From assembly GCA_017651265.1 (NCBI GenBank), contig JAGCDO010000010.1, positions 1-64,000 on the forward strand: 64,000 nt of DNA. Reading direction: 5' to 3'. A model generated the notes under the pieces. That model did no database searches, was not told the origin of the DNA, and saw only the letters and a program-made list of their open reading frames with translations. The stretch comes from Prevotella sp. (GTDB lineage Bacteria; Bacteroidota; Bacteroidia; Bacteroidales; Bacteroidaceae). The position numbers and the translations under genes were made by a program. Positions 3,209 through 63,560 of this stretch are shown in pieces. Each line of letters begins with the position of its first letter. Position 1 is the stretch's first letter.

Positions 3209-3254
3209 AAGATTAAAATGACGTAAATGAATCGCCCACTGGCTAATTCGGGGG

Positions 3255-3361
3255 CAAAGTTACGATTAAGCGAGCAAAAAACCAAATATTTTTTTAGGTT
3301 TTTTCGAGCGTGAGTATCTTCGGCAAAGCCAATAATACGATTAAGCGAGCAAAAAACCAAA
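3255..3361 (-). promoter_or_regulatory. Tandem-promoter repeat element, copy A (drives ssrA)
   Basis: The proximal -7 box TAACTTTG is at 3255-3262 on the minus strand; a distal, weaker box (TATTATTG) is at 3330-3337. A 25-bp perfect direct repeat occurs at 3262-3286 and 3337-3361. An inverted repeat AAAAAACC / GGTTTTTT (3276-3283, 3297-3304) lies upstream of the proximal promoter. The same layout recurs as copy B at 41809-41914 and copy C at 48345-48451. Confidence 0.75.
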
Positions 3362-3390
3362 GGATATACCATATTTCTCAAAAAAATATG

Positions 3391-3398
3391 TAATTTTG
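3391..3398 (+). promoter_or_regulatory. -7 box TAATTTTG of the polysaccharide operon
   Basis: TAnnTTTG match, 45 bases before the ATG of the export lipoprotein gene at 3444. It lies back to back with the ssrA promoter element on the other strand. No UpxY-type antiterminator gene and no inverted repeats of an invertible promoter are seen. Confidence 0.7.
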
Positions 3399-19275: not shown

Positions 19276-19345
19276 CAAAGATACGAAAATTATAAATAAG
19301 TGAGAAGGAAATAAACAAAATTATTTTCAGAACATGAAGATTTTT
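19276..19345 (-). promoter_or_regulatory. Promoter repeat element, copy E (drives the secreted nuclease)
   Basis: -7 box TATCTTTG at 19276-19283 (minus), CTCACTTATT core, imperfect inverted repeat GAAATAA / TTATTTTC at 19308-19328 and the AATCTTCATGTTC stretch shared with copy D near 63510-63530. Confidence 0.6.
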
Positions 19346-32355: not shown

Positions 32356-32389
32356 TTTAATGGGTTCGTTGATTTTATACTATTCCTTG

Positions 32390-32469
32390 CAAAGATACGG
32401 ATAAGTAAGCACAAAACAAAATAAAAATCAGTTTTTCTTTTATTTTATCGAACAAAAATATTACCTTTG
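32390..32469. promoter_or_regulatory. Divergent promoters with promoter element copy G
   Basis: Minus box TATCTTTG at 32390-32397 (peroxidase) with GCTTACTTAT core and inverted repeat AAAATAAAA / TTTTATTTT (32418-32426, 32438-32446). Plus box TACCTTTG at 32462-32469 serves the small lipoprotein gene, ATG at 32494. Confidence 0.7.
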
Positions 32470-34393: not shown

Positions 34394-34473
34394 GAAGGTA
34401 CGAAGATACTTTCATTCGAGCAAAGAAAAAACACGTTTTTTCTTTGTATTGTGCTCGTTTATCTGTATCTTTG
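34394..34473 (+). promoter_or_regulatory. Promoter repeat element, copy F
   Basis: Plus -7 box TATCTTTG at 34466-34473, GCTCGTTTAT core, perfect inverted repeat AAAGAAAAAAC / GTTTTTTCTTT (34422-34432, 34435-34445). The left edge also holds a minus TACCTTCG box (34393-34400) 8 bases before the symporter ATG, so the symporter mRNA would be almost leaderless. Confidence 0.65.
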
Positions 34474-34596
34474 CAGTGTCGAATAATGGGTATCTATGAC
34501 ATATCTGTGGTTATAACAAACTTTAACAATTACGGATGCAAGTTTTCCTAGTCTTCGCGTTTATAAAGATAAAGAGTCTAACAATAATAGGAGGTT

Positions 34597-35664
34597 ATGA
34601 GAAAGAATTGCGTTATGAATACCTTGCTGTTCAGAGGGGTAATGCTTCTAGTTTTTTTGTTGGGAGCAGAAGTTTGGTGTGTTGCCCAAGAAGATAATCA
34701 AGACGTGACAGTGGGTGACGTGTCAAACACGAATTGTGCGAATCAGGCTAGAGGCGAGAGTGTCATGGGTCATCCTACACTCAAGCTAACTCGTATTGAT
34801 AGTGGTATATTGGGAGAGCTAAATAACTACCAGGCCAATTGTGCATTTGGTGATATTAAGGTGATCTGTAAAGAAAATGAGCAGAATCTTGCTATTTATG
34901 TTGACGAAGGGACAGGTGAAACGATTGCTACTTGCATTTGTCCTATCAACATCTATTTCACAATCTTTAATGCCCTCAAAGAAGAATACAATCTAACAGT
35001 GCTAGGACATGATATAGGATTAGTATCTTTTAAGGAACACTCTGTTGTGGAAATCGACTTGATTACACTGGACCAAGCCAATGAAGAAGGTTTCAGCTAT
35101 CCTGTCATGGCACAGAATTATTGGGCTTATGAGATCACTAATAGCGTCAAGCCAGACTATGACTTGAGTCAAAGTCTTGCCATTGATAATTACTTTGACA
35201 AGCAACTTAATTGTGTGTTTCACAATTATGTACTACCAAGTGTTTACAACTATTTAGATGTTCAAGCGGGGTTGGATCAAGAAGGCACGATGGTGATCAA
35301 TGTGCTTACGGATGGAATACCTGATAAAGACGGCAAACGGGTGGCTCACCTGTTTTTTGACATTGTTAATGTTCTGAAAGATAAGTATCATCTTCTGCTA
35401 AACCACACCGTCATGGCCGGAAGCGAGAACGAATGCACAGTATGTCTATACGATGGGGATTTTACGGTACCAAATCAAGATGAGCTGTCTATTCCTATAA
35501 ATGACAGTTTCAATTATAGTGCACTCATTGCTGCCATTACACCACTTCAGTTAACAGGTATAGGTCCCAACGTCATGTACTATGATCTACAGGGGCGTCG
35601 TATTGCAGGTCTGCCCAAGAAAGGAGTATATATACAAAACGGGAAAAAGGTCGTGATCAAGTGA
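34597..35664 (+). CDS. Secreted protein with Prevotella-type C-terminal tail
   Basis: 355 residues. Signal peptide (LLGAEVWCVAQ). The last residues (MYYDLQGRRIAGLPKKGVYI then QNGKKVVIK) match the short C-terminal tail found on many secreted Prevotella proteins and related to type IX secretion sorting domains. The main body has two similar halves, each with N..(Y/F)..IV(F/V)..LK(E/D)(E/K)Y(N/H)L, suggesting an internal duplication; no family named. Upstream AGGAGG at 34589 is only 2 bases from the ATG, too close to act normally. The leader is about 120 bases. Confidence 0.7.
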   Translation: MRKNCVMNTLLFRGVMLLVFLLGAEVWCVAQEDNQDVTVGDVSNTNCANQARGESVMGHPTLKLTRIDSGILGELNNYQANCAFGDIKVICKENEQNLAIYVDEGTGETIATCICPINIYFTIFNALKEEYNLTVLGHDIGLVSFKEHSVVEIDLITLDQANEEGFSYPVMAQNYWAYEITNSVKPDYDLSQSLAIDNYFDKQLNCVFHNYVLPSVYNYLDVQAGLDQEGTMVINVLTDGIPDKDGKRVAHLFFDIVNVLKDKYHLLLNHTVMAGSENECTVCLYDGDFTVPNQDELSIPINDSFNYSALIAAITPLQLTGIGPNVMYYDLQGRRIAGLPKKGVYIQNGKKVVIK

Positions 35665-36089
35665 GAGATATGCAAACTTGTTTGCACATCCGAACGAGAA
35701 CGAGCTAGAACGTAGTTCAAGGTCGTGATCAAGTAAAGCCACCCCATCCCCTCCATAGGAGAAGCGATAGAATGCAGATTAATCCTCGGATAGTGAAACT
35801 ACCCGATCCATTCCAAGCATGGGCGGGTAGTTTTATTTTTTCTGATGAATTTTCGCAATTTTCGAAAGACCTAACATTGAAAAAAGTTAATTGCTTTATT
35901 TAGAGCAACTTAGGAGTAAAAAGAGGGCCGGCGAACGACAGATGTTGCCCAAACAGATAAAGAGTATCCTTTTCATGTTCTCCTTCATTCAATTTGAGCG
36001 CAAAGGTAACGTTTTTTGTCGATGTCAACAAGAGAAACAAGAAAAAGTATTATCTTTGCTAACGAATAAGGAAGCGATTCCCAACAACA
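35665..36089. other. Gap with repeated gene tail, terminator and promoters
   Basis: 425 bases without a gene. Contents: a second copy of the 18-base end of the preceding gene (35719-35736), a terminator (35796-35840), a minus-strand -7 box TTACCTTTG near 36001-36009 with no gene to serve, and the plus -7 box TATCTTTG at 36051-36058 for the GNAT gene. Confidence 0.8.
35796..35840 (+). terminator. Intrinsic terminator of the secreted protein gene
   Basis: 10-bp stem AAACTACCCG / CGGGTAGTTT, loop of 18 bases, then TATTTTTTC. Confidence 0.85.
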
Positions 36090-41792: not shown

Positions 41793-41808
41793 ACCTTCCT
41801 TTTTCTTG

Positions 41809-41914
41809 CAAAGATACGAATAAGCGAGTGAAAAGCCAAATTTATTTGAGCTTTTCCGAGCGAGAGTATCTTCGGCGAAGCCAAAGGTACGATTAAGTGA
41901 GCGGAAAACCAAAA
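41809..41914 (-). promoter_or_regulatory. Tandem-promoter repeat element, copy B (drives trmB)
   Basis: Proximal box TATCTTTG 41809-41816, distal box TACCTTTG 41882-41889 (73 bp apart). Inverted repeat GAAAAGCCAAAT / ATTTGAGCTTTTC (41830-41856, one bulge). The segment GGCTTCGCCGAAG between the promoters is shared with copies A and C. Confidence 0.75.
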
Positions 41915-41934
41915 GATTATTGAGTTCTCCCTTG

Positions 41935-43548
41935 TTACTCCTGCAATTTCTGGATGCGCGCATCGAAATCCTTGGCACCACCCTTCTCGCCAAACACCTT
42001 TCCCAGTAACCGGGCACGTCGGTTCGTGATGGTCTGCGGGGATTCTCCGATCAAAGTAGCAATCTCTGTGGGAATGAAACGTAATTTGATCAGCATACAG
42101 ATACGGATATCACGTTCGCTGAGCAGTCCGTTCCGGTTCACAATTCCCAAGAAATCCGGCAGAATCCGGTTCATCAGGTCGTACAAGTCCTTCCATGACT
42201 CATCATCAGGTGTCTTACCACGATCGGCCAAACGATGGAAGTAATGAACAGTCTCGTCGCTCAGTAAGGTATCCATCAGGGAGAGGTCAATTGGAGTCTC
42301 TGGTTCTTTCTGTGTTTCCTTCAACTCGTTTTGCAGATCCTCAATCCTCGACAACACCTTGTTATAGTCTTTCATTTTCCTGCGATGGTAATAGTAGAAA
42401 GAACCGATGATGATGAGTAAGACAAGCGATGCCCCCAACAGCAACAAGACGTTCCGATAAAGACGGTGCTGCACTACCCGGTGGTCGTATTCCTTCTGCA
42501 TGGCGGCGATGGTTTCTGCCTTATCGTTCACACGAATACCCTGATACAACTTATTCAGATGCTCACTCAAGTCAAGCGCCCGCCATTCCTCACGGTCCCT
42601 ATAATACTGCACCAGTTTCTCATACGCCTCGATTCTTACCTGTATATGATCGGTGTTCAACGACTCGAACCAATAATCAGTGGCCTCCTTCATCTTTCCT
42701 TCTGCCTCCATGAGGTCACCCATTCGCTTGGCACCATAGTCGTTAGGGAATACCTCCAGTGCTTGCAACAGATACTGCTTGCCTTTTACCGTGTCCTTCT
42801 CCTCCAAGGCATTACAGCCAAAGCTGACGAGGAGGTCTGACTGCACCTGTCTCTCCACCGATGACAAGAGTGGCTTTGCCTGTTCCACATAGACCTTTGC
42901 ACTGTCGAGCTGACCTTGGTGGATATAGGCTCTTATCAGTTTGTTCAGACTCGCTGCCTTTCTGGAGTTACTGTTCATCGCCGTTGCACTGGCCAACGCA
43001 CGCTGATAATAGGTTAGCATCAGCTCCCTGCAGTTGGCTGCTGCATTCAGGTTTCCAATGGCATCATACACATCATAACAAAAGACCTTGTCGTTGCAAC
43101 CATCAATCATTCCCTCTGCCTCTTTCAGACAAGTCACTGCATCCTTCCATCGACCGTTACTCTGATGGGTAATACCAAGATGAAGCAGTGCTTTGGCCAA
43201 CCGAGTGTGCTCCTTCTGCTGCCGATAATAATCCACGCTATATGTAATCAGAGAGTCGTTACGTATCTCCAATCCTATTTTATGTATAGCAGCAATATAC
43301 AGGAGGCCGAAGAGGGCCGAGTCCTCCTTGGTATCCAACCGTGAGTGCTCAATATCACTTTTATCTCCATCCTCCCCTGGTTTATTCTGCGCATTCTCCA
43401 GCTCATAGAGCATCTGCATGGCCTTGTTTGGATCCTCATCGATGATCTTCTCCACCTGCTGTAAAGCAGCATGGTTGCCGGATTGCCCATGCGAGCAACC
43501 CGACAACACACAAATGATAATCAGAGTAATGATAGTATAGTATTTCAT
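41935..43548 (-). CDS. TPR lipoprotein with TM helix and HTH domain
   Basis: 537 residues. Lipobox/signal (CVLSGC), six to seven TPR-like helix pairs (about 30-340), one membrane helix (about 363-385), a coiled coil, and a C-terminal helix-turn-helix (about 465-520; [44 protein letters not shown]) like LuxR-type DNA-binding domains. It would sense in the periplasm and act on DNA from the membrane. The topology is odd for a lipoprotein, so the Cys may not be acylated. Overlaps the TonB C-terminal gene by 4 bases. Target unknown. Confidence 0.82.
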
Positions 43549-43943
43549 TTCGTTTTATCAAGACTGAACGAGATGGGGAGAGAGTACTTCACACGTACAG
43601 CCTGACCTTTCTGTTTACCTGGTGTCCAGTTCGGCATACTCTTTACTATACGTATAGCCTCCTCATCCAATGAAGGGTATAACGGTTTTACCGTCTGCAC
43701 TTCGCTAACCGATCCGTCCTTGTCTATGACGAAGGAAATGATCACCCTACCGCTGATCTTCTTCTCCTGGGCATCCTTCGGATAAGAGATGTTCTCACTC
43801 AGGAATTTGATCATTCCCTGAATACCGCCAGGGAATACCGGCATCTCTTCCACCACGTCAAATGCATCGTTGTTCTTTACTTGCGCCTGAGCGCTAAGTG
43901 TCATCATACAGGCTGCGATAGCCATCAGAATAGTCCTTTTCAT
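43545..43943 (-). CDS. Secreted TonB C-terminal domain protein
   Basis: 132 residues. A cleavable signal peptide (LSAQA|Q) instead of the usual TonB membrane anchor, then one TonB C-terminal domain (MPVFPGGIQGMIKFLSENI, YPKDAQEKKISGRVIISFVI, PLYPSLDEEAIRIVKSMP, WTPGKQKGQAVRVKYSLPI). Without an anchor it cannot transduce energy in the standard way; it may act as a free periplasmic partner or sensor. First gene of an operon with the TPR-HTH protein. Confidence 0.88.
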   Translation of the reverse strand: MKRTILMAIAACMMTLSAQAQVKNNDAFDVVEEMPVFPGGIQGMIKFLSENISYPKDAQEKKISGRVIISFVIDKDGSVSEVQTVKPLYPSLDEEAIRIVKSMPNWTPGKQKGQAVRVKYSLPISFSLDKTK

Positions 43944-48251: not shown

Positions 48252-48344
48252 AGAAAGACAAACGATTATTAGAAATAGTATTCGTGGTGCAAAGGTACTA
48301 CATATTTATAATATTACCGAAAAAACGGGTTCTTATTTTAGATT

Positions 48345-48451
48345 TTTGCTTGTTTATCCGTACCTTTGACTTCGTCGAAGGTACTCTCGTTCGGAAAAGC
48401 AAACAAAAACAAGCTTTTGTTTGGTTTTTCGCTCACTTAATCGTACCTTTG
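48345..48451 (+). promoter_or_regulatory. Tandem-promoter repeat element, copy C (leaderless start of a long operon)
   Basis: Distal box TACCTTTG 48361-48368 and proximal box TACCTTTG 48444-48451, 83 bp apart. Inverted repeat AAACAAAA / TTTTGTTT (48401-48408, 48415-48422), then TTTGG at the -33 position 19-20 bases before the box. The ATG at 48456 follows the box by 4 bases, so the mRNA start should fall on or next to the start codon. Confidence 0.8.
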
Positions 48452-48455
48452 CACT

Positions 48456-51008: not shown

Positions 51009-52144
51009 TGAAGCGAACGATTGTAATTACCGGTGGCGCAGGCTTTATTGGAAGTCATGTGGTGCGCCTATTTGTGAACAAATACCCGGATTACCACATC
51101 ATCAACCTCGACAAGCTGACGTATGCGGGGAATCTGGCTAATCTCAAGGATATCGAGGACAAGCCCAACTACGAGTTTGTGAAGATGGACATTTGTGATT
51201 TCGATGCGTTCTACCAGCTGATGCAGGACAAGAAGGTGGACGGCATCATCCATCTGGCAGCAGAGAGTCATGTGGACCGCAGTATCAAGGATCCCTTCAC
51301 CTTTGCCAAGACCAACGTCATGGGAACACTGTCCTTGCTCCAGGCTGCCAAGCTCTATTGGGAGTCGTTACCTGAGAAGTACGAAGGCAAACGGTTCTAC
51401 CATATCTCTACCGATGAGGTGTACGGAGCATTGGAACTGTCACATCCAGAAGGCATCGAACCTCCGTTCACAACAACAGCCAGCAGTGCTGAGCACCATC
51501 TTGCCTATGGAGATAAGTTCTTCGTAGAAACGACAAAGTACAATCCTCACTCACCCTACTCGGCTGCCAAGGCTTCTTCCGATCACTTTGTGCGTGCCTA
51601 CCATGACACATACGGAATGCCTGTTGTGGTGACGAACTGCTCGAACAACTACGGTCCTTACCAGTTCCCCGAGAAACTGATTCCCCTCTTCATCAATAAC
51701 ATCCGTCATCGCAAGCCTCTGCCCGTGTATGGTAAGGGAGAGAATGTACGCGACTGGCTGTTCGTGGAGGATCACGCCCGTGCCATCGACCTGATTTTCC
51801 ATGAGGGAAAGATTGCCGAGACCTATAACATCGGCGGTTTCAACGAGTGGAAGAACATCGATATCATCAAGGTGGTCATCAAGACCGTCGACCGTCTGCT
51901 GGGACGCAAGGAAGGTGAGGATATGGATCTCATCACCTTCGTCACCGACCGTGCCGGACATGATCTCCGTTACGCCATCGACTCATCGAAGCTGCAGAAG
52001 GAACTCGGATGGGAACCCAGTCTGCAGTTCGAGGAAGGCATCGAGAAAACCGTACGCTGGTATCTCGACAACCAGGAGTGGCTCGACAATGTCACATCAG
52101 GTGATTATCAGAAGTATTACGATAACATGTACGCCAACAGATGA
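51008..52144 (+). CDS. rfbB: dTDP-glucose 4,6-dehydratase
   Basis: 378 residues. NAD site [12 protein letters not shown], catalytic [11 protein letters not shown] and Tyr/Lys of [12 protein letters not shown], with [20 protein letters not shown] at the C-terminal side. Makes dTDP-4-keto-6-deoxyglucose. The glucose-1-phosphate thymidylyltransferase (rmlA) is not in the window. Overlaps purT by 4 bases. Confidence 0.96.
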
Positions 52145-63458: not shown

Positions 63459-63560
63459 CAAAGGTACGAAAAATCTGATTAAGTGAGAAAGAAACAAATG
63501 AATTTGTTTGCTCGAACATGAAGATTTTATCCAATAAGTGAGCGAAAAATCAAAAGTATG
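63459..63560 (-). promoter_or_regulatory. Promoter repeat element, copy D (drives GH2)
   Basis: -7 box TACCTTTG at 63459-63466 (minus), CTCACTTAATC core, perfect inverted repeat AAACAAAT / ATTTGTTT (63492-63499, 63502-63509), then a second GCTCACTTATT core near 63533-63545 without a good -7 box. Confidence 0.65.

Follow-up and report, generated by a model that had tools for sequence, protein, structure and literature searches.

A dispersed palindromic promoter repeat of Prevotella that appears to insert behind resident -7 boxes

Results

Promoter repeats within the window

The window analysed here is a 64,000-nucleotide stretch of Prevotella sp. DNA (contig JAGCDO010000010.1, positions 1 to 64,000) that had been reported in a preliminary description to carry three copies, A, B and C, of a tandem-promoter element ahead of unrelated genes. 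All three were recovered, in promoter orientation towards ssrA, a TrmB-type gene and a MatE gene, respectively. A covariance model (R1) was built from 18 copies, with the downstream units of A, B and C and a further copy, F, in its seed. The full unit of copy A lies at 3254..3321 on the minus strand (83.1 bits), and its right arm is the proximal ssrA promoter, with the -7 box TAACTTTG at 3255-3262. The region upstream of it (3329..3397, minus strand) scored 22.3 bits (E 0.006) and contains a promoter core recognised by its motif, GCTCGCTTAATCG at 3338-3350, with a poor left arm. The full unit of copy B (41808..41873, minus strand, 81.3 bits) forms the proximal promoter of the TrmB-type gene (Methyltransf_4), with the -7 box TATCTTTG at 41809-41816, and a partial unit with the box TACCTTTG at 41882-41889 stands upstream (41881..41941, minus strand, 35.7 bits). 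Copy C has its full unit at 48377..48452 on the plus strand (85.4 bits), where it provides the proximal promoter of the MatE gene with the -7 box TACCTTTG at 48444-48451. An upstream -7 box, also TACCTTTG, and the small hairpin ACTTCGTC that joins this box to the left arm occupy 48361..48376 (plus strand); the upstream promoter itself is weakly unit-like (48291..48369, plus strand, 29.5 bits, E 1e-4).

The two promoter cores were found to be 75, 73 and 83 bp apart in A, B and C (C measured by eye), within the range of 73-83 bp given earlier. The motif TAnnTTTG had been ascribed to both cores of each copy; the upper -7 box of copy A reads TATTATTG instead. By its score, the upper "promoter" in each of the three copies is either a partial unit or a promoter that neighbours the full unit.

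Shorter or diverged relatives had also been listed. Three of them matched R1: copy F (34402..34474, plus strand, 63.4 bits), upstream of an ORF at 34597-35664 that has no Pfam match at E<=1e-5; copy E (32389..32465, minus strand, 50.9 bits), which has diverged and precedes a glutathione peroxidase gene identified by Pfam; and copy G (63467..63529, minus strand, 35.9 bits), which is of the second subfamily and lies ahead of a glycosyl hydrolase family 2 gene. The fourth, copy D (19276..19345, minus strand; AAAATCTTCATGTTC...TCTCACTTA...TTTTCGTATCTTTG), gave no R1 match at E<=1. It has its left-arm pattern in common with G and looks like a member of the same second subfamily.

Structure and promoter content of the unit

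The repeat is one imperfect palindrome of about 75-85 bp carrying one promoter. Most covariance-model matches span about 66-77 bp, and the insertion, including a small hairpin, about 73-85 bp. Read in promoter orientation, the unit consists of GGCTTCGCC, the left arm GAAGnTACTYnCGYTCG, a stem-loop of variable sequence, the right arm GCTCRCTTAATCG and the -7 box TAnCTTTG, its consensus ends being GGCTTCGCCGAAG and GTAnCTTTG. The promoter consensus of the Bacteroidota is outlined in PMC8748976 as TTTG at -33 and TANNTTTGY at -7. The right arm, which ends in the -7 box (GCTCRCTTAATCG-TAnCTTTG), matches a complete promoter of this type; together with the TTTG of the stem it fits the consensus, and GCTCRCTTAATCG is the conserved spacer between -33 and -7. 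This sequence occurs 26 times in the window's genome, compared with 0 occurrences of a reversed control pattern. The unit is short, non-coding and repeated with inverted termini, as MITE-like elements are. A search of the whole window against Rfam at the gathering threshold found no family matching the unit, and copy C searched at E<=1 gave sub-threshold matches only.

A tandem-promoter element as the repeated unit, as first described, was rejected because single units are common and the period of arrays is that of one palindrome. The repeat is instead a single palindrome with one promoter that stands behind an existing -7 box, and tandem promoters arise where units stand behind other promoters. 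A plain promoter consensus was ruled out as well, the left arm and the hairpin being common to the copies.

Most units face a gene. An ORF of at least 100 codons started no more than 120 nt downstream of 30 of the 34 copies with long flanks and on the opposite side of 7 of the 34; the four exceptions include ssrA, an RNA gene, and the first unit of an array. The genes downstream encode tmRNA (ssrA), a TrmB-type methyltransferase, MatE, glutathione peroxidase, S-adenosylmethionine synthetase (metK) and 3-dehydroquinate synthase (aroB), which have no obvious common function, as had been claimed.

Covariation and folding

The left arm pairs with the right arm. When 18 copies were aligned with MAFFT and compared with 500 shuffles under a structure specified by the analyst, 91.0% of positions were paired (82.0% shuffled), 36 cells were changed on both sides (11.6 shuffled) and the covariation score was 0.272 (0.108 shuffled), with 0/500 shuffles reaching each value. 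Two of the five covariation measures did not exceed the shuffles (218/500 and 457/500). A second test employed 81 distinct genome copies aligned to the model, an alignment that is fitted to the structure and leans towards it. It gave 90.7 vs. 79.4% paired, 167 vs. 59.1 two-sided cells and a score of 0.324 vs. 0.133 (0/500 each), while one measure was borderline (28/500). Covariation is no proof of selection for the fold, because template-switch mutation can make palindromes self-complementary.

A small hairpin before the left arm showed 3-bp complementarity in 60 of the 81 copies (mean 26.4 and maximum 38 in 2000 shuffles), the pairs being mostly GGC/GCC, GAC/GTC and AAC/GTT. The left arm, the small hairpin and the covarying stem are thus all common to the copies, in keeping with the earlier claim that their similarity exceeds the generic promoter consensus. 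The variable nn positions also agreed more often than expected between left arm and right box (54/80, 23.7 expected), left box and right box (43/67, 20.7 expected) and left box and left arm (33/68, 17.6 expected). Five units were folded as single-strand DNA. Folds better than those of shuffles were obtained for C (z -3.85), B (z -3.08), the metK copy (z -6.14) and the aroB copy (z -4.59), and the fold of copy A was no better than its shuffles (z -0.85). In the metK copy the native box and the left end of the element form a 10-bp stem.

Copy number and distribution

The covariance-model search that the preliminary description had proposed found at least 123 copies in the window's genome (G000) at E<=0.01, a lower bound since the best 150 of 1798 first-look candidates were scored. 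Near-identical promoter sequence thus precedes unrelated genes within one genome. Among the draft assemblies compared, matches at E<=0.001 were present in 29 of 36 genomes of the genus, the window's included, and in 2 of 24 genomes of other families. In this stricter pass, in which about 82 candidates were scored per genome, the genus genomes contained 0-83 copies each. The copy numbers were 123 in G118, 120 in G203, 102 in G287, 83 in G238 and 26 in G356. Thirty-one exact left arms occur in the window's genome. Around four unusual ones, about 390 bases were read; the arm leads there into other repeats or into partial units, and neither a coding insert nor a full-length relative with a transposase was seen in these stretches.

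The exact right-arm pattern was found in at least 117 stretches of named genomes. Among the matches listed, these belong to Prevotella, Prevotellaceae, Bacteroidaceae, Porphyromonadaceae, Bacteroidales, one Candidatus Minthosoma and one unplaced "bacterium UBA3734", and many are from ruminant guts. A simple regular expression placed a left arm ahead of 52 of 128 right-arm motifs; the rest, inspected by eye, have a variant left arm or a right arm alone. The exact right-arm motif was also present in 5 stretches of viral contigs. None of 50,697 phage records matched, and the single match among 72,556 plasmid records was a related promoter hairpin from Phocaeicola massiliensis.

The possibility of an associated transposase was considered. 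No match to PF01797 (Y1_Tnp) was found at E<=0.001 in the window's genome, which is 94% complete. In the 36 genus genomes the median number of copies was 9 in those with PF01797 (n=19) and 16 in those without it (n=17), with p 0.91 at about 82 candidates scored per genome.

Presence, absence and replacement in relatives

Two close relatives, G118 and G203, share 93-97% identity with the window's contig across most of the length aligned. In G118, ssrA has a plain promoter without the unit, and 28 of the 29 other genomes in which the locus was fetched likewise have none at E<=0.1, the exception being a diverged copy in G035 (55.9 bits). At the MATE locus G118 has the same downstream unit as the window. 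G203 has at that place a unit with a different stem sequence in which both sides of the stem have changed together. At the 63.5-kb locus, the second-subfamily copy G of the window corresponds to two tandem canonical units in G203. G118 also has copy F, its loop differing in length by 2 bases; copy E is present in both relatives, and copy D has the same sequence in G118.

For a broader comparison, joined gene-side flanks were searched in G118 and G203 for 55 of the 123 loci; these came from better-scoring copies, and 20 were chosen as single units with a native-looking upstream box. Six were dropped because the orthologue was missing in one or both relatives. Of the 49 loci counted, the unit is the same (>=90% identical) in both relatives at 18, absent from both at 8 and different in both at 7; the remaining 16 are mixed. 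"Absent" here means below a score cut of about 43 bits; at several of these loci a weaker remnant (27-42 bits) or a promoter made up of the right arm alone persists. Thus 31 of the 49 loci differ in at least one of the two relatives, and the gain or loss between orthologous loci that the earlier description had made a test of its proposal is borne out, with ssrA, metK and aroB as examples. Of the two outcomes named beforehand as refuting the proposal, neither similarity confined to the promoter consensus nor invariable shared descent was found. No inverted version of the unit was seen by eye among the orthologous loci inspected.

Empty sites and the junction at the -7 box

Six hand-picked loci were measured: metK, aroB, L071, L075, L076 and L085. 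At metK an 85-bp insertion relative to G118 and G203 lies between flanks identical at 239/242 and 238/242 positions and is accompanied by a 10-bp direct repeat, CGTACCTTTG. The aroB insertion is 81 bp relative to the same genomes (flanks 242/243 and 240/243). Relative to G118, L071 carries 82 bp with flanks of 243/243 and a 9-bp repeat, GTACCTTTG, and L075 carries 84 bp with flanks of 241/242. Two loci are less clean: L076, with 73 bp vs. G118 (36-bp repeat) and 83 bp vs. G203, and L085, with a 106-bp gap and flank differences. The junction in the clean cases is at the -7 box. At L071 the difference may be a precise loss in G118, because G203 has the unit.

At aroB the left box is still the native TACTTTTG and the right one reads TACCTTTG; L085 has TAACTTTG, its native box, to the left and the element's TACCTTTG to the right. 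In neither case is the right box a copy of the native one, and no target-site duplication was therefore found there. Since the right box at aroB differs from the native box, it would belong to the element and probably came with it rather than from duplication of the target, although a later point mutation could give the same result. The equal left and right boxes at metK and L071 do not discriminate between these origins.

Of 12 genomes compared at aroB, the window's was the only one with a strong R1 match (81 bits). Eight, G118 and G203 among them, were without the unit at E<=0.1, and weak matches at the same promoter were found in G285 (30.0 bits), G238 (26.1 bits) and G287 (21.8 bits), so that a right-arm-like promoter may already have preceded aroB in the ancestor. 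At metK, R1 found no unit in seven genomes, among them G118 and G203. Units of other versions are present there in G287 (71.6 bits), G238 (63.9 bits) and G327 (55.4 bits); the difference could therefore represent a loss in G118 and G203, and either direction of change would be compatible with it.

Sequence change after insertion

Mismatches relative to the two relatives were counted at the 18 loci conserved in all three genomes, a choice of conserved loci that limits the test. The -7 box had 0/288 mismatches, the right stem 3/396, the right spacer 8/468, GAAGnTAC 2/274, the loop 9/470, the left stem 12/360 and the left internal-loop segment 16/360, compared with 49/1518 in the upstream flank and 30/2154 downstream. 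The -7 box (p 0.0003) and the right stem (p 0.005) change more slowly than the upstream flank; for the right spacer and the left internal-loop segment the difference from that flank was not significant (p 0.11 and 0.26, respectively). By these counts, the promoter half is kept by selection and the left internal segment, which is conserved between copies, drifts in place. Such drift would be expected if the segment served movement and not the host gene, and it fits a role in spreading. GAAGnTAC, little changed between the relatives, may have a role in cis.

Discussion

How the unit may move

Mobility of the unit, which had been proposed as a mobile or copied promoter cassette, is well supported by its presence and absence at orthologous sites; the molecular mechanism is inferred. 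The reading that we prefer, and consider probable though not securely so, is that the unit is a mobile element, palindromic and non-autonomous and about 75-85 bp long, whose right arm supplies a promoter and whose insertion point lies directly 3' of the -7 box (TAnnTTTG) in a promoter already in place. Four features can be read directly from the aligned sequences: presence or absence at matching sites, the junction at the -7 box, the element-borne right box at aroB and the orientation towards genes. Because the target would be the -7 box, insertion would swap the promoter of a gene while its 5' leader stays. The GAAGnTAC of the left arm appears complementary to the left box as well as to the unit's own right box, which would allow two alternative hairpins. 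Since it could pair with either box it is probably an internal guide, and this would explain the choice of -7 boxes. The likely intermediate would be a folded single strand, cut at both boxes by a putative trans-acting recombinase. Loss is possible without an enzyme, by slippage between two boxes that flank a hairpin.

The ends of IS200/IS605 elements contain guide sequences that pair with the cleavage sites. By analogy, the unit would resemble these elements in its insertion 3' of a short site, a right cleavage site inside the element and an internal sequence complementary to both. It differs from them in being non-coding and in having an 8-base promoter box as its target, and the genome yielded no Y1 transposase. 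A stronger version of the proposal is speculative and on balance somewhat doubtful: that the units form a new class of promoter-homing element, in which the GAAGnTAC guide of a folded single strand pairs with the target -7 box and a putative trans-acting recombinase joins the strand behind it, replacing promoters genome-wide with turnover on the time scale of species divergence.

Alternative explanations

The main rival, which we regard as unlikely but still worth serious attention, is copying without an enzyme. A nascent strand would leave one -7 box, anneal through an 8-10-base microhomology at the box adjacent to an element elsewhere, copy one box-to-box unit and return; selection would then fix a good promoter, and slippage and gene conversion would lengthen, shorten and homogenise the runs of tandem units. 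Such template switching would account for units that run from box to box, for the long identical right arms often seen in neighbouring units (36 bp in L076; L049 and L075 by eye), for the exchange of cores between relatives at fixed sites (the MATE locus and L032) and for a copy number unrelated to the presence of PF01797. However, the left internal segment is conserved between copies yet drifts once inserted, for which promoter selection alone would be insufficient, and the native metK promoter is little like the element beyond the box.

The variable copy number, small size, extragenic palindromic form, occurrence singly or in arrays and single-strand folding of the unit would also suit a REP/REPIN-type element moved, in the past or at present, by a Y1 tyrosine transposase (RAYT); the same likeness in palindromes and copy number appears in the descriptions of these systems in PMC3733652 and PMC6006769. 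In a REP, as defined in PMC3733652, the palindrome is tagged at one end by GTAG or CGTC, and the unit consensus has neither. The PF01797 results argue against this origin as well, both in the window's genome and across the 36 genomes, and the unit targets a promoter box and is itself a promoter, setting it apart from REP/REPIN as outlined there. We therefore consider this origin improbable. An element of the classical MITE type, mobilised by a DDE transposase and marked by terminal inverted repeats and target-site duplication, seems more improbable still. The imperfect inverted arms and the 9-10 bp direct repeats at L071 and metK would agree with it, but the flanking boxes differ at aroB (TACTTTTG and TACCTTTG), though the flanks there are 242/243 identical, and at L085 (TAACTTTG and TACCTTTG). 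Least credible is an immobile, selected family of regulatory promoters, either a transcription-factor regulon or a structured 5' element. The conserved spacer GCTCRCTTAATCG and the constrained -7 box and right stem are what such a family would display; its genes nevertheless lack an obvious common function, no Rfam family scored above threshold, and presence or absence at -7 boxes between genomes about 95% identical largely refutes it through the empty sites.

Relation to known systems

Putative mobile promoters were reportedly described by Matus-Garcia, Nijveen and van Passel in 2012. The concept, as presented in PMC8049555, is that of a promoter-bearing intergenic repeat spread ahead of unrelated genes, and the present unit is alike in this respect. 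It differs from those promoters, as they are described, in being a defined palindrome with covarying arms that sits at a resident -7 box and has sequenced empty sites. BrickBuilt and other MITEs of Porphyromonas gingivalis are likewise Bacteroidales intergenic repeats with promoter activity according to PMC4596501, where BrickBuilt is characterised as minisatellite-bearing and MITE-like, with IS-like terminal repeats and bidirectional promoters, rather than as a unit of about 80 bp at -7 boxes. The invertible promoters of Bacteroidales have the same -33 TTTG and -7 TANNTTTGY consensus and inverted repeats, as outlined in PMC8748976; no inversion was seen here, where the palindrome itself constitutes the promoter and varies through insertion, loss and replacement. 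Palindromic candidate structured RNAs from Bacteroidetes of the human microbiome are intergenic, 80-130 bp long and were found by structure search (PMC8040213). These are presented as RNA or terminator candidates near particular genes, and the present unit may be one of them. Among the papers listed in a literature search, judged by titles and the beginnings of abstracts, none described this element. To the extent that these sources describe them, the idea of a mobile promoter is known, and what appears new is a palindromic variant that targets promoters.

Repeated sequences have given rise to earlier proposals of mobile promoters. The defined unit, its insertion point (the -7 box) and the empty sites in close relatives allow a direct test of whether promoters move, and by what route. 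If the unit is active, rumen Prevotella would rewire housekeeping and RNA genes (ssrA, metK and aroB) by swaps of whole promoters, and most of the loci compared differ between species that are about 95% identical. The guide-like left arm would yield a concrete prediction on the choice of target.

Related repeats and minor observations

Arrays and related hairpins were also noted. One locus in G238 (L175, G238:C125:14929-15316) holds five units in tandem at a period of 79 bp, and four of the five have almost the same score. The Phocaeicola massiliensis plasmid OY725997.1 has at 43678-43731 (L512) a related stem-loop promoter (GTTCGGAAATGCTCAAATAAATTTGGCATTTCGCTCAC...TAACTTTGC) outside Prevotella. 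The second subfamily (AAAATCTTCAYGTTCGAG...CTTCTCACTTANTCAGATTTTTCGTACCTTTG) is represented in the window at 19276-19345 and 63467-63529, both on the minus strand, and also at L464, L480 and L062; its outer stem is seemingly AAAATCT/AGATTTT and its spacer to the -7 box seemingly longer.

Another dispersed hairpin (CACGACTC ... GCTGCTCC) stands between the left and right arms, or replaces the left arm, before the same promoter core; it was found at L001, L009, L015, L026 and L486 in G000, L425 in G118 and L401 in G203. In yet another version of the unit, which follows a -7 box at L023 and L028 (G000), L397 (G118), L063 and L086, the hairpin is of the GCCATCGGAGATGGC type and the left arm is GAACTTGCTCACGCTCGG; the L028 copy is absent from G203. 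Short tandem runs of CAATTNTCAATT-type repeats lie directly upstream of -7 boxes at ssrA and at the L085 locus and constitute another repeat class that forms promoter upstream regions. Such runs are present at L097 (G014), L104 (G027), L085 (G000), L376 (G118) and L361 (G203).

Within the window, ARAGORN reported a tRNA with anticodon gctg at 51439-51515 (minus strand), which overlaps ORFs, has no Rfam support at the gathering threshold and is probably spurious. Finally, a degenerate copy of the unit (31.5 bits) without a good -7 box lies at 35645-35707 on the minus strand, at the 3' end of the ORF at 34597-35664, and is also present in G118.
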